NCBI GenBank assembly: GCA_034620365.1
Contig: JAQGEQ010000213.1
Location: 558,001 to 622,000, forward strand
DNA from: Pegea sp. RAD2-039
Taxonomy: Eukaryota > Chordata > Thaliacea > Salpida > Salpidae
Direction of reading: 5' to 3'
Length of the DNA: 64,000 nucleotides
Notes under the pieces: generated by a model
Databases searched by the model: none
The model's input: only the letters and a program-made list of their open reading frames with translations
Told to the model about the DNA's origin: nothing
Made by a program: the position numbers and the translations under genes
Part shown: positions 3,393 through 34,067 of the stretch, piece by piece
Layout of the letters: each line of letters starts with the position of its first letter
How positions within the stretch are numbered: position 1 is the stretch's first letter

Positions 3393-4321
3393 ATGGATTT
3401 GGAAGATATTCGTAGAAGAAGAATGGAAGAGTTGAAAAAAGGTCAACGTCAACAAGAAGTAGGTTGTTTTCTTATCTTTCAAAAAGCTTTTTTTTTGTTA
3501 ATATCACATTGTTTGTACCATTTAGTAATGTAGATATTAATTATGGTCCTATTTACCTTGAAATTTTATTAACAATAATTCCAAAATTAGACTTATATTT
3601 AAATGAAATACATTTTTGTTAGAGTGGAAATTTTGAGGCTCAACAGCAGGCCAATAAAGAAAGGTAAATCAATATTACTGATGTTATATTTAAGAAAATA
3701 AGTTATTAATGTTTGCCAATTATATTTGTGTAGAGAAGAAATGATCAATGGTATGTTGTCTCAAATCTTATCACAAGATGCCAGGGCTAGATGTAAGTTT
3801 GAAACTAAGTAATAACTAATCAATTACTTTTCAGATCTTTTCTAAATTGTAATTTATGATATTAAGATTTAAATGTTGGCTACTTTAAACTTTAATATCG
3901 ATTTTTCAGTGAGTAGTATTGCATTGGTTAAACCTGAAAAAGCTAAAGCAGTCACTGGTATGCTTATTCAAATGGCTAATTCTGGTCAAATAAGTGGCAA
4001 AGTAATTTACTTTTATGAATATTTTTGAAATTTTTTTTTCAATACTATCATTTATTTTTTGCTTGATATAGCTGATAAACAGTTATCATTTACATTATAA
4101 ATGCATATTTAACTTAGAACAGTTTTTAATCTTGTTTAACTATAAATGACAGATGAGCGATTCTCAATTATTGTCATTGCTTGAACGTGTAAGTGGAAAC
4201 TCTCAGAAGACTTCTGTGAAGGTGAAATTTTATATAAATCTGTTTAACTTATTGCTCAAGTTGAAAACTGTCTATGGTTTAGTTTGATAGACGAAGAGTG
4301 ATGGATTCCGACTCAGACTAA
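3393..4321 (+). CDS. PDCD5: Programmed cell death protein 5 (PDCD5 / TFAR19 family)
   Basis: Small helical protein of the PDCD5 family, which in animals acts in apoptosis promotion and in chaperonin (CCT) and TIP60-related regulation. Six exons: 3393-3458, 3623-3663, 3734-3792, 3910-4001, 4153-4221 and 4283-4321, all with GT-AG introns and consistent frame. The product is 121 residues; human PDCD5 is 125. It starts [16 protein letters not shown], matching the acidic/basic N-terminal helix. The core has [10 protein letters not shown], then [14 protein letters not shown], the family signature LxNLALVKPEK, then LIQMANSGQ. The C-terminus [12 protein letters not shown] matches the conserved FNRRKVMDSDED end. 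The first ATG fits the family start. It is convergent with the ropporin-like gene, 333 bp away. Nothing is truncated or odd. Confidence 0.96.
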
Positions 4322-4578
4322 TCGGAGTTCTTATAATGAAGTAGAAGGATTTACTGAAGGCCATTATTTTTCAAAATAACTTTTTTAGTTTGTAATTGTT
4401 TTTTCAGTTTTGAAAAGACAAAGATATTTGAATGATTACCATTTTTGATTAGTTATAATGTTTTCTTTACTTTTAGTTAATATTTTGTCAGGAACTGTTA
4501 TGCAAATACATATTAAGAAGTTGAAAGATCTGTTTATTGTTGTTACAAATTGAAAGTACATCAATAATAGAGTAATTA

Positions 4579-4584
4579 TTTATT
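4579..4584 (-). promoter_or_regulatory. Polyadenylation signal AATAAA for the ropporin-like gene
   Basis: A perfect AATAAA on the minus strand, about 70 nt past the stop at 4655, is the expected distance for a 3' end. In this A+T-rich DNA the hexamer is common, so position is the main argument. Confidence 0.45.
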
Positions 4585-4654
4585 ATAACAAATAAGCCTT
4601 AAAAGTAATGACAAGAATTTCAGTTTGCGAAAGATTGCTTATGAAGAATCATAT

Positions 4655-5714
4655 TTATGAAAGTTTGGGACTATCAGGTCCAAGAAAGTGTCTGGGTGAA
4701 ATACAGCCTCCTTCACTATAAATAAAATAGGATGATTAAGGGAACCATTTTTACTGATACCAAACTCCTGGATTAAAAAACTTACATCTTTGTTTGTAAT
4801 TTGGTGAGGACTTCATCAACTGTTTCTTGTGTAATTTCACCATCACGAGCAGCTAAATATCCATAAATGATCTTGAATGTTTCGAAATCCATCTCATTGC
4901 TTCGATTTTGTGAATTGATTCGCATGACTTGACAGACAACTTTCATTGAATCAGTAATATTCTATACAGCAAAATTGTTGATTAATCTCAGTATAAGCAG
5001 TCAACTTTTGTCAGAAAAATTCATTAAAAGAACTGATTATAAATTTGTCTTACTGAGTTTGCAATATGGCTTGCACCAATTGCAATAAAATGGAATACAT
5101 CAACAGCTTCATAATCACTTTCTACATATTCAATTTCATCAAAAATCTCTCTTAATTCGGATTCTAGAAGACCAATTTCTGTCCATACCCTTTTTATCAT
5201 CGATGTTTCAATGGCATTTTGACCTTCAAACTGATTATAAATCAATTCAAGCAAACCAGTAGTTAAGGTGCCTGTTTTGTTGCCAGCTTCTAGCCTCTTT
5301 TTTATAGGTAAAGGTCTGTTTGAGCTTAAAGCCCGGAAGTATCTATAAAAAATGTATTGTTTCAATAGATTAGTTAAGGAACCTAACTAAACTTTATTAA
5401 ATGCTTATAGCAAAAGTCAATCAAAGTATGTCAATATTTTGCACATTTTGAAATAGATTACATAACACAACAATAATGAATATTAAAATCTTGTAAATTA
5501 AAAAGCATTGTTTAATTTCATTTTATAGTTAAAGTATTTAATCAAATTGTGAAAGAACTTTAACATATTTAAGTTAGATGACTCACGAAGCAGACCAAGC
5601 CAGAACATCGGGAGGCTGGGTTCTAATAGCTGCTTTAGTAAAGTCTTTCAATAAATCAGGTAATTGAGGAGGAACATCTATTTGACTTCTATCATATATA
5701 TCAGTTGAAGGCAT
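4655..5714 (-). CDS. ROPN1L: Ropporin-1-like protein (RIIa-domain sperm/cilia protein)
   Basis: Four exons: 5714-5587, 5342-5054, 4961-4786 and 4715-4655, giving 217 residues; human ROPN1L is about 230. ROPN1L binds A-kinase anchoring proteins through an RIIa-like dimerisation/docking domain and belongs to the radial-spoke/fibrous-sheath machinery of motile cilia and sperm tails. The N-terminus has IDVPPQLPDLLKDFTKAAIR followed by TQPPDVLAWSASYF, nearly the vertebrate IPPELPDILKQFTKAAIRTQP motif. The middle (LTTGLLELIYNQF, VDVFHFIAIGASHIANS) and the end (EGGCISPRHFLGP) also follow the family. The third donor falls inside ATG-TAA, so keeping the last intron would stop translation at once and remove the last 19 or so residues. 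Its presence suggests the animal has motile cilia or flagellated sperm. Confidence 0.93.
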
Positions 5715-11100: not shown

Positions 11101-13519
11101 AGTTTTGTTTTCAATATGTTAAGTAAAGAAGATATTTGTTTACATCAAAAACTGATGCTTGTCACAAAACAATAACAAAATTTTGTATTTTTAATAGCGA
11201 TGAAGATGACATATCTGAAAATACTGCTGACAATTTTACTCATGTAAGTTTGTATTCAATCTTTTCGAACCAGTTTTGAATTTTACTAATTAAGGAGAAA
11301 TTACATTCGTTCGGTGCAATGGATGAAGATAAGTACATGAGCTTCAACTCTTCATCGGAGAGTAATGAAATAATTTCAACTGATAAATCATGTAAGTAGT
11401 TAGTTTGTTGATTAATCAAATGTCAAAGTATATCTGCTGCAGGTGAAATGAAAGTCGACAAAGAAAATGAAGCAGCAAAAATAAAGAAATTTGAAACTTT
11501 TAGTTTGATATCAGATATATTTGATGGGGTTATCGTCAGTTCTGTTCAGTGTAGAACTTGCTTTGTTAAATCAAATACAAAAGAAAGTTTTCAGGTGAAA
11601 TTTAATGAAGTTTCTACCAACAAATTCATTTATTTATTTCAGGATATTTCTCTTCCTATTCCTAACAAAGATGATACAGCTCGAATCCATGAGCAAACTC
11701 CTAATCTCACTTCTAATGTCACTTTTACTGAAGCTGATAATCGCGATAGCTATACCGCCTGGATTTGGTCCTATTTAACTACCTGGACAAGGTTTGATTC
11801 GCCACAATTTTCATCTATTTTCTTATTTGTTTGATTTGACAGCTTATTTAGTAATTGGATATGGGGTCCTGAGGTGGAACTGAGTGATTGCCTTTCTGCT
11901 TTCTTTTCTGCAGATGAATTGAAAGGTGATAACATGTATCGTTGTGAAAAATGTCTCAAGTGAGCTGACAAGAACCATCTAAAATCACTTCATTCACTTG
12001 TCTATGTAGGCTTCGAAATGGTGTGAAAGAATGTAAGTTGCTACAGTCACCTGAAGTACTTTGTATACATCTGAAACGCTTTCGCCATGAAACCTACTCA
12101 TCGTACTCCACGAAAATTGTAACCACAGTCAAATTTTCTCTAAAAGTAAGTTGAAAATATCAACCATAACTTCGAGTTGTACCTGTACACTTGTAGGGCT
12201 TGGATATGACCAGATACATGTCAAATGAGAGTACTTCACAAATATGTAAATATGATCTCGTCTCAGTGATTATGCATCATGGAAATGCTGGAGGTAGATT
12301 TTTTCTGATCCATCAACAACCTCTCATTTATCATCTTGTAGGTTATGGTCATTACACATCCTATTGTCGAAATCCAGCAAATTTGAATTGGTACGAATAC
12401 GATGATAAATTTGTGAGACAAGTTGATGAGGAAGATGTAGCAAATGCTCAAGCTTATGTCCTTTTCTACAAGTATACCTTCTTCAACAACCAGTTCTCAT
12501 TTAATGAATCGATTTGATGTTTACTTCAGAAAACAAGATGAACACATGCAAGTTATTCGAGATGAATTGTGTCATTTAGAGAAGCAACCCAAACTAATCT
12601 TCTACTATGTATCTGTTGAGTGGCTCTACAAAGTGTTCACATTTGCTGAACCTCCTCCTATCAACAACCGCTACTTTTTATGTCCTCACGGAGGTAATAT
12701 CTGATCTCAGCTCATTCATTAATTAATAAGTTTCACTTTTATATTAGATGTGGATCCAGTGAAGTTTCAAACCATTCAACACCGCGTTTGTTGCATCTCT
12801 GAGCAAATGTGGCATCTAATTCATAACAAGTACGGTGGTGGGCCAGTTGTTCCTCATCTACGAGCATGTAAGACTTGCTTGCATCAGCTCGAAGAACTGA
12901 AAGAAAAACGCAAGACAGAATTGGACATGTTTGTAAAAGTAGGTCATCGTGTCAACGATTATTATTATCTACCAAGATTTTATCAACATTTCATTGTTCA
13001 GTTTCAATGGAAGCTTTAATTTATCAATTTGTTGCTATTTCAACCATGTTTTTGTGTCGTTATAGTTATCTAAATCAGTGAGTAGTCAACAAGGTATAGC
13101 CGACCAACCAACTTTCTACATCAATATGGTTTGGTTTCGAACTTGGCAAGATTTTATTTTAGGAAAACGAAAAGGTGAAGATACTTTGTTTGTAAAAATT
13201 CTCAATAAAATGAGTTGCTTAAAAAAGTTGTAAAAAATTAAACAACAAACAAATGAGATTTAGAAATGATTGTAAAACTGTTGATGAAATTTGTGCGCAG
13301 AGCCACCTTCTCGAATTAACAACCAACAAATCCTGTTGGAAAACAACGGGAAGTTTGTTCTAAACAAAAGTAAGCAACAAATTCAAGCGCGCTTTCATTC
13401 TTTCTTCATTTAAATCTATCTTAGATTCAGATTTTGGCGAGATTCCTCTGATCGCCTGGAAGTATCTAGTTCATCGATATGGGGGCGGACCTCCCGCCCC
13501 AGCTGATCTTCATCATTAA
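8171..13519 (+). CDS. USP33: Ubiquitin carboxyl-terminal hydrolase of the USP20/USP33 type
   Basis: Cysteine protease that removes ubiquitin from target proteins; vertebrate USP20 and USP33 act in the secretory pathway, on receptors and on HIF. I join 23 exons (8171-8233, 9011-9061, 9161-9223, 9350-9454, then on to 13301-13369 and 13425-13519) into about 812 residues; the human proteins are 914 and 942. Order: zf-UBP zinc finger (about 2-85; CEH, then CDSC 19 residues later as in USP20, WACL, FVGCG, WCFLC); Cys box [13 protein letters not shown] (nucleophile near residue 149); [13 protein letters not shown] zinc pair; [11 protein letters not shown]; His box GYGHYTSYC (His near 563) with WYEYDD; two DUSP domains ([14 protein letters not shown]...YGGGP and WFRTWQDF...YGGGP). 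All catalytic residues are present. The start was chosen because the first exon supplies the first zinc ligands. USP20 and USP33 cannot be told apart here; it may be the single ancestral gene. Confidence 0.95.
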
Positions 13520-19216: not shown

Positions 19217-22200
19217 TCAGTTCATGGTGCGTGCGAGAAAGTCGCTCATATCCATCGACGGGAAGTCGAGTCCTTCATCATAATCCATATTATTCTGAGC
19301 ATTTGTAGTTTGGTTGCCATTTGATAAGACGGATGTTGGTTGAGTTGGTTGATTAGGGACTTGGCCGAAGTCACTGATGTCAGATCTAGAAACATGAAGA
19401 TGAAGAGAGTAGCTAAAAAATGAATTATTGAATTTACAAATCATAGCTAATAGAAGTGTGACGTGTGTCCTGTGATACTGGTGATGCTACTGCTAGAGGA
19501 GTTAACTGTTGAGACATCTCAATTGGGGTTGTAGGTGCGCTATGATCACCATTCATCGATAAACTATTTGATAAGCCAGGTGGGGGTCTGTAAAGAGTTA
19601 GATGATGAAATCAGTTAGATCAAATCACTTACTTACATTAATGTGATAGTTTGCATCAATTCAGTCCGGACGTACCCATCTACACATGATTCTGCAGAAG
19701 ATGGAAGATCAAAAGATGTAATGAAGTAATGAAGATGAAATACTTGAGCTGTTATCTGCTGGCGTTGAATAATATTTGCCGAAAGCTTCATCTTTTGGTT
19801 TCACAATATTATCAACTGTTACTACAAACATCAATTGATCTACATCCCGGATTCGATCAGGAAGTGCTCGGATGTTGTAATCTCGTAAAGAGTGAGGTTG
19901 GAGGTTGTAAACATCACCACCTGTAAGAGTTGGAAGATATGAAACTAATTCTATCATCCTATTTATGTCTTTACCATCTTGAATTTTATCTGATTTACAA
20001 GCGATCGTTAAACCTCCAATCTCAGAGTCAGAGTATCGGAGAAGGAAGTGTTTAAGAGGTTGAGGTAGAAGTTTTTCGCGACATTCAACTTTGCCAATAA
20101 ATCCAATTATCAAACTGAATTTAAGGAATCAAAAATAGAAGATTTTGTCAATCACTAACTAACCCATCATTCCATAAAGGCTGATTCAATTTATGTTTCG
20201 TTAACTCCATTATTCCATTAAACCATTGCCAGAAAGTGAAGCTTCTACCATGGAGTGGTTCGCGATTGAACTGTACCCATGAGACGAGTTGTTCAGAATT
20301 AGGTGGGAGAGTGTATCCTGTTCAAATATCTGCTGTAACTTTCAGATCTTTTAATAAAACAAACAAGTTACCGAACAACTTGTTAGCCAGATACTGCTTG
20401 GCTTGAACATTCAATCCTCGTCCACTGCAACATTCGTGCTTCCATTTAATGTCTAGCGCTTCAATTAGTCTGAACCAAGGAACTTTATCCGGGACATAGA
20501 AAGGAACTCGGCCCTGTTACAGTTCATTAAGTTTACTTTTCAGATACTTAAATGTTTGCTTTTTTGAAATTATTTCTCGTGAATTAATTGTTGAATTGTA
20601 TCAACACCACTACCAGCTACAATTGTACCAACAAATTAAAAATTAACTTTTCGCTTATACAACATCTAGTGACACGTGTGCACGTGCAGCATGCATCAGT
20701 TTGTGTTTGAACAACAACACAGCCACTAATGTATAAAAACAAAATTGACGAATTAGAGGTATTTTTGCTGAACGAGAAATTGCAGGAACACAAGTACTTG
20801 CTTACAACTACGGCACACTACAAAGCAGTTTTGTGCAGGCTAGCACAAGTGCTTCGATAGCAATACCTCATCAGCAAACGCATTCTCCCACAGAATTGTA
20901 CCCCTGGCATTACTCTCTTGGCTGACATTGACTATCACCACAAGTGGTAGTGACATTGCATGAGGCTTTCAGTTTAATATAAAAGAAAAAGAAATATTAA
21001 AATGATGTCGAGTGAGTCACCTGTTCAGAGAAAGCATTATCCCACAAGACACTGCCAGCTGCATTAGCTTCTTGGTTCCCATGAACGATTACAACAACAG
21101 GAAGAGAATGAGACTGATGAAGAGGTCAAGTTGAAGAGTAAAGATTTTATATTTATGTGAAAATAGTATCCTAATAAGCTTATAGAAGATATTCGAGTCG
21201 ACTCACCCGGACTTCAACTCCTATATCGTGTCCTAGATTGAAACTAGCTTGAAAAAGAATAGTAAACTTTTCCTCCGTCACACACTCTGCACCTCGTTTA
21301 TCGGCGCGTTTAATTCGACGTAGTGACTGAAGTGAAGACGAAATGTGATTGGTTTAGCGATGGTCACTTGATGCTCTCACCATGTTACGGAAGTTGACAC
21401 TGAGGATTCCTGACTGTGCGTGGTACTCCATTACACTTTCCGGATTCAAAATCTCACCACTTACTTCACTGACACTAAAAATTCATCAAAATTAAATTGG
21501 AAATACTCGAAATATCTTCGAGAAAGTACTTGCGACGTTGATCTGAATTAAGAGTCTTTGCTTGGACCTCACTAATGATGCTCGCTTTGACAGTGGGTGG
21601 GTTCATGTGGATATTCAACTTTCCCCCAATTAGCAACCGAACAGTTGCACCAAATCTTGTTTGTGTCTTCAAAACTTGCGGAGGCTGCTTCTCGATCACG
21701 AAAGCACTGAAACAACATTTGACTTCCGTTGTTTACTCTTAGAAACATTTTCACACAAAACCACTAGCCGAAGCTGATTTTTAAAAAGTTTTAAAAACAG
21801 GTTGAAAGCTACGAGTAAGAAGATGATGAAGGAATAGATTGATATCATTTGAGGATCGCTCAGAAAAAATTTAAAATTTTATTTTCACTTTTACATGAAA
21901 GTTTTCAACAAATGTTTGACAACATCTTTTTAAAACTTTTATTTATCATACGTGCTTATGTGGCAGAGCGATTTGTTCCTATCAAACACAGAAGAAAATA
22001 TAAAAAAAAAGTTTAATAGGCACCCTGGCCTCAAAAAAATTCTCTTTAAATTGATCTTACAAATAAATCTTGCACTTGGTGTAGCAAAGCACCTATTTAA
22101 TGGTGGCATGTATGATTTACAAAAGCCAACGAAAGCTAGGATCAAGTGATGTTGATGATGAAGTGAAAGTTGCCGAACTTGACTTGTACGTGACAACGTT

Positions 22201-24844
22201 TTAGTAACTAGCAGACAAAAAATCAAACAGTCGCCAAAGTATATCCTGTGTAAAGCGAGCGTCAAATACAACTATGAATAATCAAGTGTAACCTGTCAGA
22301 TTACACTTAAAAGTAAAATTTGTGAAAAATTGATGAAGTTAAAAATATAATTGAAAAGTAAATTGTGGGTAAATGGTATCGAATATCAGTAAAATTATAT
22401 TTCCATAAAATCAAAAATAAAATTAAAAAGTGGGTAAAATTGAAGTTTGAAACGTGTTGAAGGATTTGTTTGATCAAAAGTTGTAGATAAAATAGATTTT
22501 TGACTAGCATTTGAGCGTAACGAAGAAATTTCTTCAACATTTTGTTATGCGTTTAATTTTTAAACTAATAGAATCCTCGAAACAAATTTAATCAGGCCAA
22601 AATTTAAACATAAAATAGTATGAAATTGAAATTATTGTTCAACAAAATGTCTTTCAAGATTCATTTAGCGAAGAGAAAGAAGAAAATTCAAAATCAATTT
22701 TCAGGAAGAATAATAAAGTTTTCTTACAAAAACAAGCTTTTCAAGTTTTGATATTTCATCACAAGAATATATTTTATTCAAAGAATTTGGTAAACAAAAA
22801 AGTAGGTTGAAAATCGGCAAGTTCAAATTCCTGCAGACAATCAAAAACAAAGAAACGTTTAACAAGAGTGTAGAGCTAAGTAGAAACACTTTGACTCAAT
22901 AAACAATTGAAAAAACCTTGCAATAAGCTCCAACAACAAATCAGTAATCGTTGTATCTTGTTCACTTAGCATATCTCGTTGGTTGTGGAATGGTAGTTGT
23001 GCTCGCTGTAGTTGAAGTCTTTTGATTTGCTGTCTACTTTGCCAAACAATTTCAGCTAATTGTTCACACCTAAGTAAGATTGTTAGAATAAAAATATGCA
23101 AATGATAATGAAGCAACCATTGCTGAAGTTGATCAAGGTTGTCGCTATCTCTTGGTACTGCTCCATTATAAGCAAGCGCTTGTGAACGTTTCCATTTACT
23201 TAATTGATCGTTTAAAATTTCCTTTTGTAAATGAGATAGGCGAGCTAATAGGTCTTGATGATTATTCACAAGAGCCTACAAAGTAGATTTTAACGTTTAA
23301 ATTTGAGAAGAAATAGACTGAAGTAGAGATGAGTTAGTCATTTTATAAGCGTAAAAATACTAACCTGACTTTTATACATACTTTTATACTAACCTACTTT
23401 CTACCGATAAATCGTTTATATATTTAAACCTAACTACCAAGAATAATTGCTATGTGAAAGGTTACAGCTTAAAGTATTTAATATGCTTGTTAACATACCA
23501 GCCGCATTTGCACAATTTTTTGCTTTCCAGCGCAAAGAAGTTTATCGTATTCTTGACTTTTCCTCATCAAAGGTTGTTCCATCTGTATGCGGGTTGGGTC
23601 GGTCTGAGAACGTTGCCGATAATGTTGCAACTCATCTAAAACCACCATGATCAGATTACCAATCAAGATATTAAGCGGATAAAGAAGTTGATTTACTTAT
23701 TATGCGCGCATTATCCTGATATTTAATGATAAAAAATTCCTGTTCAGATTGAAGGTTTCTTAAATCTTGTTCAAAGTTGCGAACTTTTGTCAACAACTGC
23801 TCTAATTCTTGGTTAATTCTCATCGCATTTTTTGCATGAACAGAATTAGCTACATTGAGTGACTCAATTTTCTAAACCCAAAACAAAATTAGGAAAAATT
23901 AGTCAAGATAAAGGTTAGCTTACATCATTGTCTTGTTGAACAAGTCGACTTTCAATTGCAAGTATCTTCTTTACAATTCTTACAAGCTCTAGTGGAGCAG
24001 AACCATATACATGCTATAAAAATCAATTACCATAAATAATTAATTTTCTATTTAAAAATATTGATTTTTTTCACTTAAAACTAAAAATGGTAGCAGAGAA
24101 AACAAAATCATTTAAATTAAAAATAGTATATACCATAAATAGTTTAACGGTAAACAAGAAAACAACTTTAGAAAAACAAATCTTAAAACCGAAAAAGTTT
24201 ACACCACCATTAGTTGGCTAAAACTGATATAATAGCATGACACAGGAGTTGTAAAAAAAGTTTGGACAATCTACATAACAAAATGACAGAAATCAAAAAT
24301 TTAAAACTTACCTTAAAATGAGAAGCGATCTCGCTAAAATGAAGTCGTTGAAGAAAGTCTTTCCCTTCAGTCAAACGTTCACATTCGTTTTGAATTTCAC
24401 TCAAAAAAAGATCCAGAATATACTTTGCATGTGACTCTTCATCACCCTGGACATTGTCAGGATCAATTTGATTCCTTTTTTTAAATAAAAGTTTTAGCAG
24501 TTTAGCAGTTTGAGTGAGTCAAAATGGCAACAAATGTTTTGAAATAAGTAAAAATTGAATTTTTAAAGGCATAATGTTGAAAACAAATCGATAAAAGTTG
24601 GCGACCAAACTACATTTAGTTTAAGTACTTTTGTAATACAGGATTAATTTCTATGACAAATTCTTTTCCAGCTAACTTACAGTTAATAATTAAGCTCATT
24701 TTACATCTAAACTCACCAGGCTTGTCTTTCAATCAAGCTTGCAAAGTAGTGGCGAAACTGAATTGGAAAATTTGGGCCATATAAGCTTTGAATTTGTCGA
24801 AGTGAGTCTCCCCCCAGTTCACGCACTTTTTCCCACAAAGCCAT
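19217..24844 (-). CDS. STAT: STAT transcription factor of the STAT5/STAT6 class
   Basis: Latent cytoplasmic transcription factor, activated by JAK phosphorylation of a C-terminal tyrosine, then dimerised and imported to bind GAS sites. Exons run from 24844-24717 to 19385-19217, 18 per transcript with either version of exon 11, giving about 824 residues. N-domain: [20 protein letters not shown] and a PLELVR block. Coiled coil: [40 protein letters not shown]-binding domain: [48 protein letters not shown]. Linker: [27 protein letters not shown]2: [13 protein letters not shown] with the phosphotyrosine-binding Arg near 621. Phospho-site: VDGYVR, Tyr near 707. The Asp/Ser/Asn-rich tail ends DFLARTMN. 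Linker and SH2 are closest to STAT6 (LIIGFI, KPKDEAF); the N-domain and coiled coil to STAT5. The start fits STAT5 and is preceded by no other frame. Tandem exons 11a/11b are listed separately. Confidence 0.96.
20690..20695 (-). promoter_or_regulatory. UGCAUG (RBFOX-type) motif downstream of STAT exon 11b
   Basis: The pre-mRNA strand reads TGCATG here, about 170 nt past the 11b donor, in the 353-nt intron before exon 12. RBFOX proteins bind UGCAUG and, from downstream positions, usually favour inclusion of the exon before. The hexamer is rarer in this A+T-rich DNA than most. No binding has been shown. Confidence 0.35.
20867..20965 (-). other. STAT alternative exon 11b (V-N-V-S-Q version)
   Basis: A 99-nt phase-0 exon with an AG acceptor and a GATGAG|GTATTG donor. 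It encodes 33 residues: [16 protein letters not shown], then [17 protein letters not shown]. It is homologous to exon 11a just upstream, across the same secondary-structure elements of the DNA-binding domain. Its Asn in VNVSQ is like the SNVSQ of STAT1 and the SNICQ of STAT3. The frame is open and the codons are conserved, so this is not a decayed copy. Confidence 0.85.
21021..21113 (-). other. STAT alternative exon 11a (V-H-G-N-Q version)
   Basis: A 93-nt phase-0 exon, acceptor CATCAG, donor CAG|GTGACT, encoding [14 protein letters not shown] then [17 protein letters not shown]. This is the canonical STAT5/6 sequence at this point. Only 55 nt separate its donor from the 11b acceptor. Both versions join exon 10 (ending GVEVR) and exon 12 (starting GRVPF) in frame. 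Confidence 0.92.
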
Positions 24845-28535: not shown

Positions 28536-29890
28536 ACAGTTTAGAAATGACAATGTTGGCAATATTATAACGGTTCAACTTCTGCTTGAACAACGCGAGT
28601 GACTTCGACATGGCAATGTCTGATGGCAGCTGGCTCCATGTACTAATTGTACGGTATGAGAAAACAAATTTGCTCTGACCAATGTACTAGGTGATATAGG
28701 CTTATTAAGGTGTAATGTGTGTCGTCTGAGCTGATATAACTTGAGGAAAAGACTAATGGAAACAAAATCATCAAACTGAATGTCAATTAAATTGTGGTTA
28801 ATTTTAAAAATAAGAATTAAGTCGTATTTAATTTAAGTCGAATTTCCAAAGTATATAAATTGAAGAAACTGAGACGATGTTTATAACTATCATATTTAAT
28901 ATTAAGTTTCCTACATACTAATCTTGTAAACGTGGCTTGAGCAGATTCGATTTTTTTGATATCACTAACTTGATATGGCATCCATGCACTGACATTGTAT
29001 TCAAGAATTGGAAGTACGTAAAATTTGAAAAAATTGATAAAAAAGCATGGGTTCTTAGAATTAAAGGTCTTTATAATAAGGAAGACAAGGTTGATTGATT
29101 TTGTAAAGATTTTGGAAACATAATAGCGCCATTTAAAGTCAGATGATAAAGTAATGCCAAGGTCTAGGACCGAAGATACTCGTTGAATAATAAATCTATT
29201 GATGGAGTATTGGTTCAAGGAGTTTGCAGCTGGTTTACGAGAAAAAGTTATAAGTTCAGACTTTGTGGGCTGGATTCTGAGCTGCCAATTCGTAGACCAG
29301 TTTTCTACAGTGTGTAGTTCAGTTTGAAGTTTTGAAGGATTACAAGATAATAGCTTGATATCATTTGCATACACAAACACTCTGACATCATCTACTGCTA
29401 CAAATTTTCTGATGAGGTCTTCGATGAAAATTAAAAAGAGAAGGGGACCCAGAACAGAACCCTGAGGAGTACCACTAGTGATTTGACTAGAAGTAGATAC
29501 AGATCTTTCTACACGAGTTTGTTGGGTTCTACCTGATAGGTAATCTTCAATCCACTGTAAGATAATTGATTTTTAAGTTTTTCAATACAGTAATGAGCTC
29601 GTTGTGTGGAACAGACTCAAACACTTTAGCAAAATCGAGATTTATGATGTCACAGGAAATGTTACTTTCATAATGGGCTGTAAGCTCATTAAGAAAAGTG
29701 AGATGTTGAGTCAGGGAAAATCTCCGTTTCACAAAACCATATTGGACATCAGATATTAGATGGTGCCCCATCAAATGACTGGTCATATGATTGTGAATGA
29801 TATGCTGAGAATGAGAGTTCTGCAGATAACTGAAGTCAGCGTAACTGGTCTGTAGCCCCCTTTTTATAAATTGGATCTCAAAGAAATGTT
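28536..29890 (-). pseudogene. Reverse transcriptase, frameshifted and catalytically altered
   Basis: In order on the minus strand: YKKG and a YRPVTLTSV stretch; LISDVQYGF; INLDFAKVFESVPHNELI (normally LDFSKAFDSVPH); SGTPQGSVLGPLLFLIF; FVYANDIKLLS; LEYNVSAWMPY; and a C-terminal FSYRTISTWSQLPSDI with a stop near 28536. These are the standard palm and thumb landmarks of a CR1/Jockey-type RT. The catalytic YADD box reads YAND, and at least three frame changes are needed to follow it. It is inactive. Confidence 0.85.
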
Positions 29891-31191: not shown

Positions 31192-34067
31192 TTAGAAACT
31201 TCTTTTATGAGGAAAATAGAGTTTAGAAGAGGACCGAGGACCTTCTTCTAATGTCGAAGATTGCAATTGGGGGTCATTAGAGATACTTTCATTTAAAAAG
31301 AAGTTATCTTGTGACCTTTCTTCATTTGACGTTGATTTACAAGAAGAAAAAACCTGAAATTTAAGAATCAAATAAAAAGACAAAATAAACAATTAGGTAA
31401 GAGACCTGGTTTTGAAAAAGATTATATTTAGCTGTAATATTTATCCTTTGTTGAAGAAGAATCTCCTGCTCTTCCAACAACTCTTTCTTTTTGCAACGCA
31501 GAAGTTCAACATCTTCCTGCATCTGACTAATCGTCTCAACTTTACGTTTTCGACAATTTTGAGCAGCAATCTGTTGAAGTTATCAAATATTAGAAGAAGC
31601 AATGAAGGACTTTAGTCTACTTTGTTTTTTCCTCGTCTACGAATATCTTTAATAAGTAGTTGCTGTTCGGAGTTAAGGGGGTACTGTGTAAGCATTTCGT
31701 TGAAGCTGTCAACTGGTGTATAAACAATTTGATCGACAGTGAAAGGAATCTTTAGATCCTCTGCTTTGCGTTCATCACGTGACTTACGTGGCTCGTTACT
31801 CTCAACTCTGTCAAGAAATATTTTTACTAAAACTGGATAAAACTGAAATAGGAGAGAAACTTTTTGATGCTTTTTGAAATTCCGTCGCTTCCATCATATG
31901 TGTGATTGTGATTAATATTTTTGAGCACCATTTTTTCTCTAGTCATATTATTTAAGACGTTTATATCATCTGTGAGAGATGATAGTTGGATTTCATGATT
32001 CTCGTTATTTGATTAATCGGCTTACCAGATTTCTGATTGCATCCTTGCATCTCTTGTTTAATCATCGAGTTTTCGTTAAAATCTAGCTGGCCTAAAAACG
32101 TGAGATCATCTAAAGAAGGGTCTTCAATTGTGATAGGATGCATCAAAGGTCTTTCTACCATATGAGACTGAATTACTGGTTGCTGGAGCGCTGTTGGTTG
32201 CATCATTGCTGGTTGCTGAAGCATAGGTGGTTGAATTTGGGAAAGCTGAAATGCTGCTTCCTGTATATTTATGGGCTGGTTGCTTGTGGATGGAAAGTTT
32301 GATATAAAAGAGTCGTTAGGTTGATTCTGTTGTTGCTCGTTGAAAAACATTCTGCCTGGGATCTTTTCTGCTTCTATTTTCATGGAATATTGAACTGGTT
32401 GCTGGTGCTGAAAGATTTCGATTTAAAAATGACAAAAATGAATGGTTGTTACTGACCAGTTGCTGATTAGTGGTATTGAAGCTATTGAAGTGGTTAGCTG
32501 TATAGTTATTATCTGGTATTTGACCGACCATGAAATCTAGAAGTAATTGTTGTAAAATTATTAGAACAAATCGATAGTTGTCAATTTATTGTTGAAATTG
32601 AAGCACCTTGTTGTATTGGTAAAAATATATCATCATTAGAATTGATTAAGCTATCTATATCAAGAGAAGAACTGACATCTTCCATCACATTTCGTAAAGA
32701 AATACTAAAAGTTGCAAAAAATTATTTTTTCTAAATGATTCCATCAATTGTAGAGCTTACAACCGTTTATTTGAAATCAAAAATAAATTAAATAAACTTA
32801 CTTGTTTGAAGTTTCAGGAAAACTAGAAATATCAGCAAAATCATTGCTGTAAAAACTCACATCTCTACCATCAGTAATATCCCAATTCTGCATTTTCTAG
32901 AATACAAGTTAATCAATCTTAAGACTTTAAGCCAATCACTGAGAAACTTACAAAGTTATGCTTTTCAGAAGTTTCGTTCGAACTTATATCCTAATTAAAG
33001 ATGAAAATAAAATTAGCTAAATTAGTTTGAAGAAATAAAAGTCATCAATAAATATCAAAGAAAGAAACAAAACTTACATTACTATCACTTGATTGACTCA
33101 TATGAGAACTTTCAAGAATTTGCAGATAAGCATCGATATCAAAATGATTATCATTATCAAAAATATCTGGTAAATCAGCCTGCATCAGAAAAAAATCAAA
33201 TTCCTGAAAATTGAAAAAAAGAATCTAGACTTACCTGTAACTCATTCAGCTTAGATTCTTGTTCACCTGTTTCCCCATCAATCACATAGTCATCAATAGT
33301 CTAAAGAGTGTTAATATTTCAATTACTTTCACACTATTTTTAAAGAGTATACCTCATTTTTTCTTAAGTTTTGTTCCAGCATTTTTTGAGAGGTATTTGG
33401 GGTTAAATGCTGCCAATGAAAACCGATATCTATGTCTTGCTCATACATTTGTTGAACTAAATCCATGTTGTGCTATAAAAAACGGTTAGTTAAGAAAAAT
33501 AATAAAGATTATAAAAAGTAATCGATTAAAACCAATTACCTGCTCTAAGTTACTTTCAGGGTCTAGATTCACTGAGGTATTAGATCTATCACTACCTGAT
33601 CTAGATGTTGATGGATTTGTTAGAAATTCTTCCCAATTAACATTACTTGAATGATTAGAGCTTTCTAAAATATTATCTGGTTCAACTATAGATCTATCTT
33701 CTGACTCAAAAAAGTTCTCAAAATCACTTTCACTCAAACCATCATGATTTATATGAAACATCATTGCCAAATAGTCTGCTCTTTGATTAGATTGCTCAAA
33801 CAATTGCGGAGTTCTTTGTAATGTATCAGCTATGATATCTCTATAATCTGACATAGAGTCATCATAGACCAACAAGCCTACTTTGCTTCTAAACATTGGG
33901 TTGTTGAAATGATGTGGATACCTTACAATACTTCTTGTTCTAACAATTCCATCATTGTCTATGACATAATTTGGATCTTCAATTTTTATTTCAGAAAAAG
34001 TAATATAAGAGAAAAGAAGTAGAACATCAAGAACTGCCATTAACATGGTTTTACTTTTTTTCCCCAT
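31192..34067 (-). CDS. NFE2L1: Cap'n'collar bZIP factor (NRF1/NRF2, CncC type)
   Basis: Stress-response transcription factor that pairs with small Maf proteins on antioxidant-response elements. Thirteen exons (34067-33540, 33472-33353, 33300-33235, 33179-33078, 32990-32952, 32896-32802, 32704-32607, 32536-32457, 32407-32026, 31969-31861, 31807-31621, 31570-31406, 31353-31192) give 710 residues. A membrane segment lies at about 8-25 ([17 protein letters not shown]), as in ER-anchored NRF1. A DLG-like motif EQDIDIGF lies near 187-194 and a KEAP1-type degron DGETGE near 224-229. The middle is rich in Gln, Pro and Met; then comes the CNC-conserved HNHTY. CNC domain (about 541-602): [29 protein letters not shown]. 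Basic region [10 protein letters not shown], leucine zipper to about 657, then a C-terminal LYFPHKRSF in the place of the VFLVPK end. An upstream exon may extend the start. Confidence 0.95.

Follow-up and report, generated by a model that had tools for sequence, protein, structure and literature searches.

Among the closest described systems is mammalian FOXP1, in which the mutually exclusive, in-frame exons 18 and 18b swap critical residues of the DNA-binding domain, so that one gene recognizes two motifs (PMC11701043). As presented in the available text of that paper, the FOXP1 switch concerns a forkhead protein, is regulated in stem cells, and was characterized with binding arrays, whereas the putative switch considered here lies in an invertebrate STAT gene. 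Vertebrate STATs carry a DNA-reading turn in a His form (STAT5A, STAT5B, and STAT6) and an Asn form (STAT1). Both forms occur at the present locus, but in vertebrates they belong to separate genes, and here they appear as alternative exons of a single STAT5/6-type gene. In the silkworm, two proteins, STAT-S and STAT-L, are likewise made by splicing from one invertebrate STAT gene; according to the accessible part of PMC11537930, however, it is the C-terminal tail that varies there, and here it is the DNA-reading turn. Two-exon clusters of mutually exclusive exons, as outlined in the available portion of PMC6071210, consist of tandem homologous exons of similar length and the same phase, as in our case, and competing RNA structures have been proposed as a major mechanism for their regulation. 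Unlike in those clusters, the RNA pairing described below for exons 11a and 11b comes from a single genome and is not statistically secure.

The specificity of STATs is usually ascribed to the presence of several genes; if splicing were to switch the turn that contacts the bases, this would constitute a second route to such diversity. Among the matches listed in our literature search, where sources were represented in part and most subscription papers lay outside the scope, no STAT with tandem or mutually exclusive exons in the DNA-binding domain was encountered. The reading that we favor, with a probability of about 0.68, is that exon 11 of a STAT5/6-type gene underwent an old tandem duplication, and that the two copies serve as alternative exons, used one at a time, to produce two DNA readers.

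Results

A complete STAT gene with a duplicated exon 11

The window, by which we mean the whole stretch of 64,000 nucleotides that was analysed, carries a complete STAT gene on the minus strand, with 18 coding exons per mRNA, as determined by an exon-by-exon rebuild from the ATG at 24844 to the stop at 19217. Exon numbers were taken over from an earlier note on this DNA, and serve as labels, not as annotation. The relevant features, with the evidence for each in parentheses, are as follows.

19217..24844, minus strand: STAT gene, ATG to stop (spliced model and Pfam)
21207..21326, minus strand: exon 10, the upstream partner, with donor CGG/gtgagt (spliced model)
21114..21206, minus strand: intron 10-11a, 93 nt (sequence)
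21021..21113, minus strand: exon 11a, 93 nt, His form, encoding 31 residues (frame, splice sites, alignment)
20966..21020, minus strand: intron 11a-11b, 55 nt (sequence)
20867..20965, minus strand: exon 11b, 99 nt, Asn form, encoding 33 residues (frame, splice sites, alignment)
20514..20866, minus strand: intron 11b-12, 353 nt, containing TGCATG 171 nt in (motif scan)
20372..20513, minus strand: exon 12, the downstream partner (spliced model)

The spliced product has 824 amino acids with exon 11a (isoform A) and 826 with exon 11b (isoform B), and the frame is also open with both exons (857 aa) or with neither (793 aa). The identity of the gene as a STAT, put forward in the earlier note, was borne out by Pfam: STAT_int, STAT_alpha, STAT_bind, and STAT_linker scored above the cut-off, in this order, in both isoforms, the search being run on the version that ends in exon 17 (769 and 771 aa). 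No separate SH2 model was detected in the translation at E 0.001. A stretch of 26 residues and the motif DGYVRTEL are present, which we take to resemble the SH2 and tyrosine region of STAT5.

Two further introns of the gene deserve mention. The last one (window 19386-19437, minus strand, 52 nt) starts with GTAAAT, and its retention would lead to an immediate stop. Two C-termini are possible, a short one ending in SYDL and one with an acidic tail (a stretch of 17 residues), somewhat like the S and L forms of silkworm STAT. Intron 14-15 (window 19921-19974, minus strand, 54 nt) contains no in-frame stop; if retained, it would add 18 residues, which would presumably fall in the SH2 region.

Exons 11a and 11b are each open in frame 0 only, with acceptors ending in AG and donors starting with GT, and they encode the same segment of the DNA-binding domain. 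The proposal of two homologous phase-0 exons of 93 and 99 nt with GT-AG borders was confirmed, and its coordinates were exact. When 87-nt stretches on both strands of the window were compared with exon 11a at the peptide level, exon 11b scored 99 in BLOSUM62 (self-score 148) and the next-best stretch only 36, and thus the homology is far above chance. No third copy of exon 11 was found in the STAT gene, nor any comparable stretch on either strand of the window. A survey of mutually exclusive exons in the fly looked for pairs with comparable lengths (up to 20 aa apart by default), a shared frame, compatible splice sites, and homology, as stated in the available part of PMC3228551; exons 11a and 11b share all of these, with 31 versus 33 aa, phase 0, GT-AG sites, and homology. 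The anatomy of the pair is confirmed, and it is unusual.

The recognition turn and the subfamily of the gene

The turn reads IVHGNQ in exon 11a and IVNVSQ in exon 11b, a change of HGN to NVS. Comparison with PDB entries located HGS in STAT5A and STAT5B, HGN in STAT6, where VHGNQ matches exon 11a exactly, and NVS in human STAT1 (ISNVSQ). The fly STAT92E presumably also has His at the contact position. In the accessible text of PMC11339341, H415 of STAT6 bonds guanine, an asparagine-thymine contact occurs at the like element of STAT1, and the DNA-contact element with H415 is said to set sequence specificity. The view that the turn reading the DNA lies within the duplicated exon, and that its His/Asn residue is one that contacts bases in known STATs, is supported.

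To which STATs the rest of the protein belongs can be judged from the scores of the DNA-binding region. Isoform A scored 271.8 bits with STAT5A, 178.9 with STAT6, 51.0 with STAT3 (1bg1), 50.6 with STAT1 (1bf5), and 45.8 with STAT2 (6ux2). The values for isoform B were 260.7 with STAT5A, 170.3 with STAT6, 53.4 with STAT1 (1bf5), 49.2 with STAT3 (1bg1), and 38.4 with STAT2 (6ux2). Relative to A, isoform B gains 2.8 bits with STAT1 and scores lower with STAT2, STAT3, STAT5A, and STAT6; outside the turn, it is accordingly not STAT1-4-like. By these scores, the gene is closer to STAT5/6 than to STAT1-4. Since the rest of the protein is STAT5/6-type, exon 11b is predicted to place a STAT1-type turn in a STAT5/6-type protein. 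STATs fall into the two subfamilies STAT1-4 and STAT5/6, and the sea squirt has one gene on each side, as reported in the available portion of PMC3296744. Invertebrate STATs lie on the STAT5/6 side of the tree in PMC13203501, the accessible text of which also reports a mollusc STAT1.

Among the best-scoring candidates in the genome, there are at least two STAT-like genes, namely the one in the window and a divergent one on another contig.

Contig C21, L007 about 3584-5474 as matched, plus strand: second STAT-like gene, in which exon 11 is single: SLPLVVTTHGKQEADANATIFWDNAF (genome search)

The second gene has His at the contact position (THGKQ), and its exon 11 is flanked by an acceptor AG and a donor GT at the corresponding phase-0 positions. 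No duplicate of this exon was found within the 9001 bases of L007. Turns of both kinds reside in the gene of the window; with the second STAT-like gene present, the animal has more than this gene alone to depend on. With His shared by exon 11a, the second gene, and STAT5/6, exon 11b would most simply have gained its STAT1-type turn independently.

The earlier note had gone further, and proposed that Asn is the residue found in other STATs and that the exchange switches the preferred spacing of GAS sites, isoform A favoring N4 sites as STAT6 does and isoform B favoring N3 sites as STAT1 does. The identity of the 11a turn with that of STAT6 speaks for such a switch, as does the H415N substitution, which is cited as altering the DNA specificity of STAT6 in the available part of PMC10499697. 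The statement about other STATs, however, is not supported as written, for STAT5A and STAT5B carry His. Since they share it, His alone cannot give N4 preference, and a clean change from N4 to N3 does not follow from the His/Asn exchange. The accessible text of PMC2877871 names no STAT other than STAT6 as mainly 4n, and fly STAT92E prefers 3n sites with weaker binding to 4n; spacing must be set by more than this residue. We regard the spacing switch as unlikely. The safer prediction, which we hold to be likely, is that the contacted position differs in the base it favors or in affinity.

Splice site strength and the probable choice between the exons

Splice sites were scored with a small matrix, for which 14 other introns of the STAT gene served as the training set. 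The acceptor of exon 11b ranked last of 17, with a score of −4.69 (next weakest, −2.25). The donor of exon 11a was the third best of 17, and its acceptor was average. An acceptor of average strength together with a strong donor suggests that 11a is the default exon, and the very weak acceptor of 11b makes this exon probably dependent on a regulator. The hexamer TGCATG in intron 11b-12, which we take to be an RBFOX-type site, is the sole one in the 17 STAT introns scanned, with 12 occurrences in the window on both strands.

A short intervening intron, a mixture of U2 and U12 sites, and nonsense decay are among the simple enforcers of exclusive splicing given in the available portion of PMC6071210. 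Twelve of the 18 STAT introns measure 48-61 nt, including the 55-nt intron 11a-11b and 11 others, and steric exclusion by a short intron was rejected, 55 nt being ordinary for this gene. Nonsense decay of the double-inclusion product was rejected as well, since 93 and 99 nt are both multiples of three and the 857-aa frame is open. With an ordinary intron and in-frame double inclusion, neither intron size nor decay enforces exclusivity. Incompatibility of U2 and U12 sites was discarded because all sites are GT-AG, with no U12-like donor recognizable by eye.

The fly survey (PMC3228551, available text) covered 16180 exons of the X chromosome annotated as not mutually exclusive, and just 90 of these (6 of 1705 genes) match a neighbor in length, frame, and homology, which speaks for the favored reading; that 39 of 65 predicted internal exons were predictions lacking annotation speaks against it. 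The authors hold that exons with such features are very unlikely to be constitutive. Alternative use of 11a and 11b is likely from their sequence features, and by analogy with described pairs we infer that mutually exclusive use is probable.

A search for inverted repeats between 20500 and 21330 revealed complementarity between the acceptor region of 11a and the donor region of 11b over 23 nt (78%). These regions are listed as possible helix arms, as a lead only.

21104..21126, minus strand: 11a acceptor region, possible helix arm, lead only (inverted repeat, duplex energy, fold)
20865..20887, minus strand: 11b donor region, the other arm, lead only (inverted repeat, duplex energy, fold)

Their duplex, at −26.4 kcal/mol, was the best of 15 pairs, and one of 368 controls and 7 of 300 shuffles were as strong. 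The pair of exon 10 donor and 11a donor came second of 15 (−23.5; 4 of 368 controls and 19 of 300 shuffles as strong). The predicted fold of 20840-21230 includes the helix of 11a acceptor and 11b donor, with a z of −0.54 and 30 of 100 shuffles equally stable, so that it does not exceed shuffled sequence in stability; that of 20960-21230, which lacks the 11b donor, has a z of +0.58 and forms a helix with the exon 10 donor instead. An AT-rich inverted pair (20967-20984 with 21145-21162; 18 nt, 83%) was also found. The duplex between introns 10-11a and 11a-11b was matched in strength by 5 of 400 shuffles, and its core, GACTCAC, recurs in intron 2-3; the two other intron-intron duplexes were unremarkable, with 83 and 344 of 400 shuffles as strong. 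The pairing of the 11a acceptor with the 11b donor is not statistically secure, and serves as a lead only. If formed, the helix would mask the 11a acceptor; splicing of exon 10 to 11b would then excise one of the arms and leave the 11b donor accessible, giving isoform B.

Age of the duplication and selection on exon 11b

Exons 11a and 11b share 17 of 29 aligned residues, 13 of which are encoded by different codons; at the level of bases, 31 of the 87 in the alignment are not the same. Nei-Gojobori counts over the 29 codons gave 16.2 differences in 20.2 silent sites (pS 0.80, saturated) and 14.8 differences in 66.8 replacement sites (pN 0.22), a contrast with a Fisher p of 5e-6 on rounded counts. 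Ten of the 12 replaced residues score positive in BLOSUM62, and the change of His to Asn is mild (+1); negative scores are confined to G to V in the turn (−3) and A to R (−1). The elements SLP, VVIV, LW, and NAF, shared with STAT5/6 and lying outside the turn, are kept in 11b. The contrast between silent and replacement sites indicates that 11b is an old duplicate kept for its protein under selection, not a pseudo-exon.

These observations bear on three other explanations of the exon pair. Exon 11b could be an optional or rare cassette that makes a modified or inactive STAT, for instance a dominant negative by double inclusion. We think this improbable: its weak acceptor and the open frame of the double-inclusion product would suit such a role, but the retention of SLP, VVIV, LW, and NAF despite silent saturation is what is expected of a working DNA-binding segment. 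Slightly less probable still is that both exons are normally joined, so that a single STAT would carry the strand-turn segment twice, over a total of 64 residues. The frames permit this, the 55-nt intron looks spliceable, and the strong 11a donor would promote it; however, the weakest acceptor of 17 and the opinion of the PMC3228551 authors on such exons, as given in its available text, speak against it, and a second core strand and groove turn would have to be fitted into a compact Ig-like domain. That 11b is no longer functional, or arose as an error of assembly, is very improbable; its weak acceptor alone could be adduced for this, but it has no stop, intact splice sites, and a pS far above its pN, and with so many base differences from 11a it is no duplicated read error.

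Discussion

Under the favored reading, in which the two exons are used one at a time, each exon would encode the final part of the Ig-like DNA-binding domain, and with it the turn reaching into the major groove. Exon 11a would create a STAT5/6-type reader (HGN), and exon 11b a STAT1-type reader (NVS). Isoform A would probably be made by default, and isoform B would probably require a regulator. As the parts for phosphorylation, SH2 function, and activation are common to both, the isoforms are expected to answer the same cytokine signal, and to differ in the base that each prefers where it contacts the GAS site. In heterodimers of A and B, the two half-sites could be read differently.

A more specific proposal is that a STAT5/6-type gene holds, as a splice choice, a turn of the STAT1-4 branch that it reached independently, and that one signal is thereby directed to two sets of target genes. 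We advance it tentatively, and think it somewhat more apt to fail than to hold. If it were true, the A/B heterodimers would read asymmetric sites. Isoforms A and B, separated by about a dozen changes, also constitute a natural minimal pair for testing site choice by STATs.

Other features of the window and the genome

Remains of a reverse transcriptase lie at window 28817-29572 on the minus strand (Pfam RVT_1), which we read as of the non-LTR type; a further open frame is present at window 29547-29888. An exon of a CNC/Maf-type bZIP factor is located at window 31612-31893 on the minus strand (Pfam bZIP_Maf). On the plus strand, window 12197-13019 contains an exon of a ubiquitin carboxyl-terminal hydrolase (UCH) and, downstream of it, an open frame whose match to DUSP stayed under the cut-off. 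Genome searches gave no hits for the odorant receptor family of insects (PF02949), the cuticle family (PF00379), or the cuticle collagen family of nematodes (PF01484), although the control genomes gave none either, so that these families may still be present; COX1 was not found, and 18S was. Elsewhere in the genome, eight diverged 18S copies, with 89-96% identity to the typed 81-base stretch, were found on contigs C278 (L011, L012, L014), C27 (L013), and C1. They are probably truncated tandem rDNA copies; C278 holds six of them in about 5.3 kb, and three of the five start-to-start gaps are exactly 798 bases.
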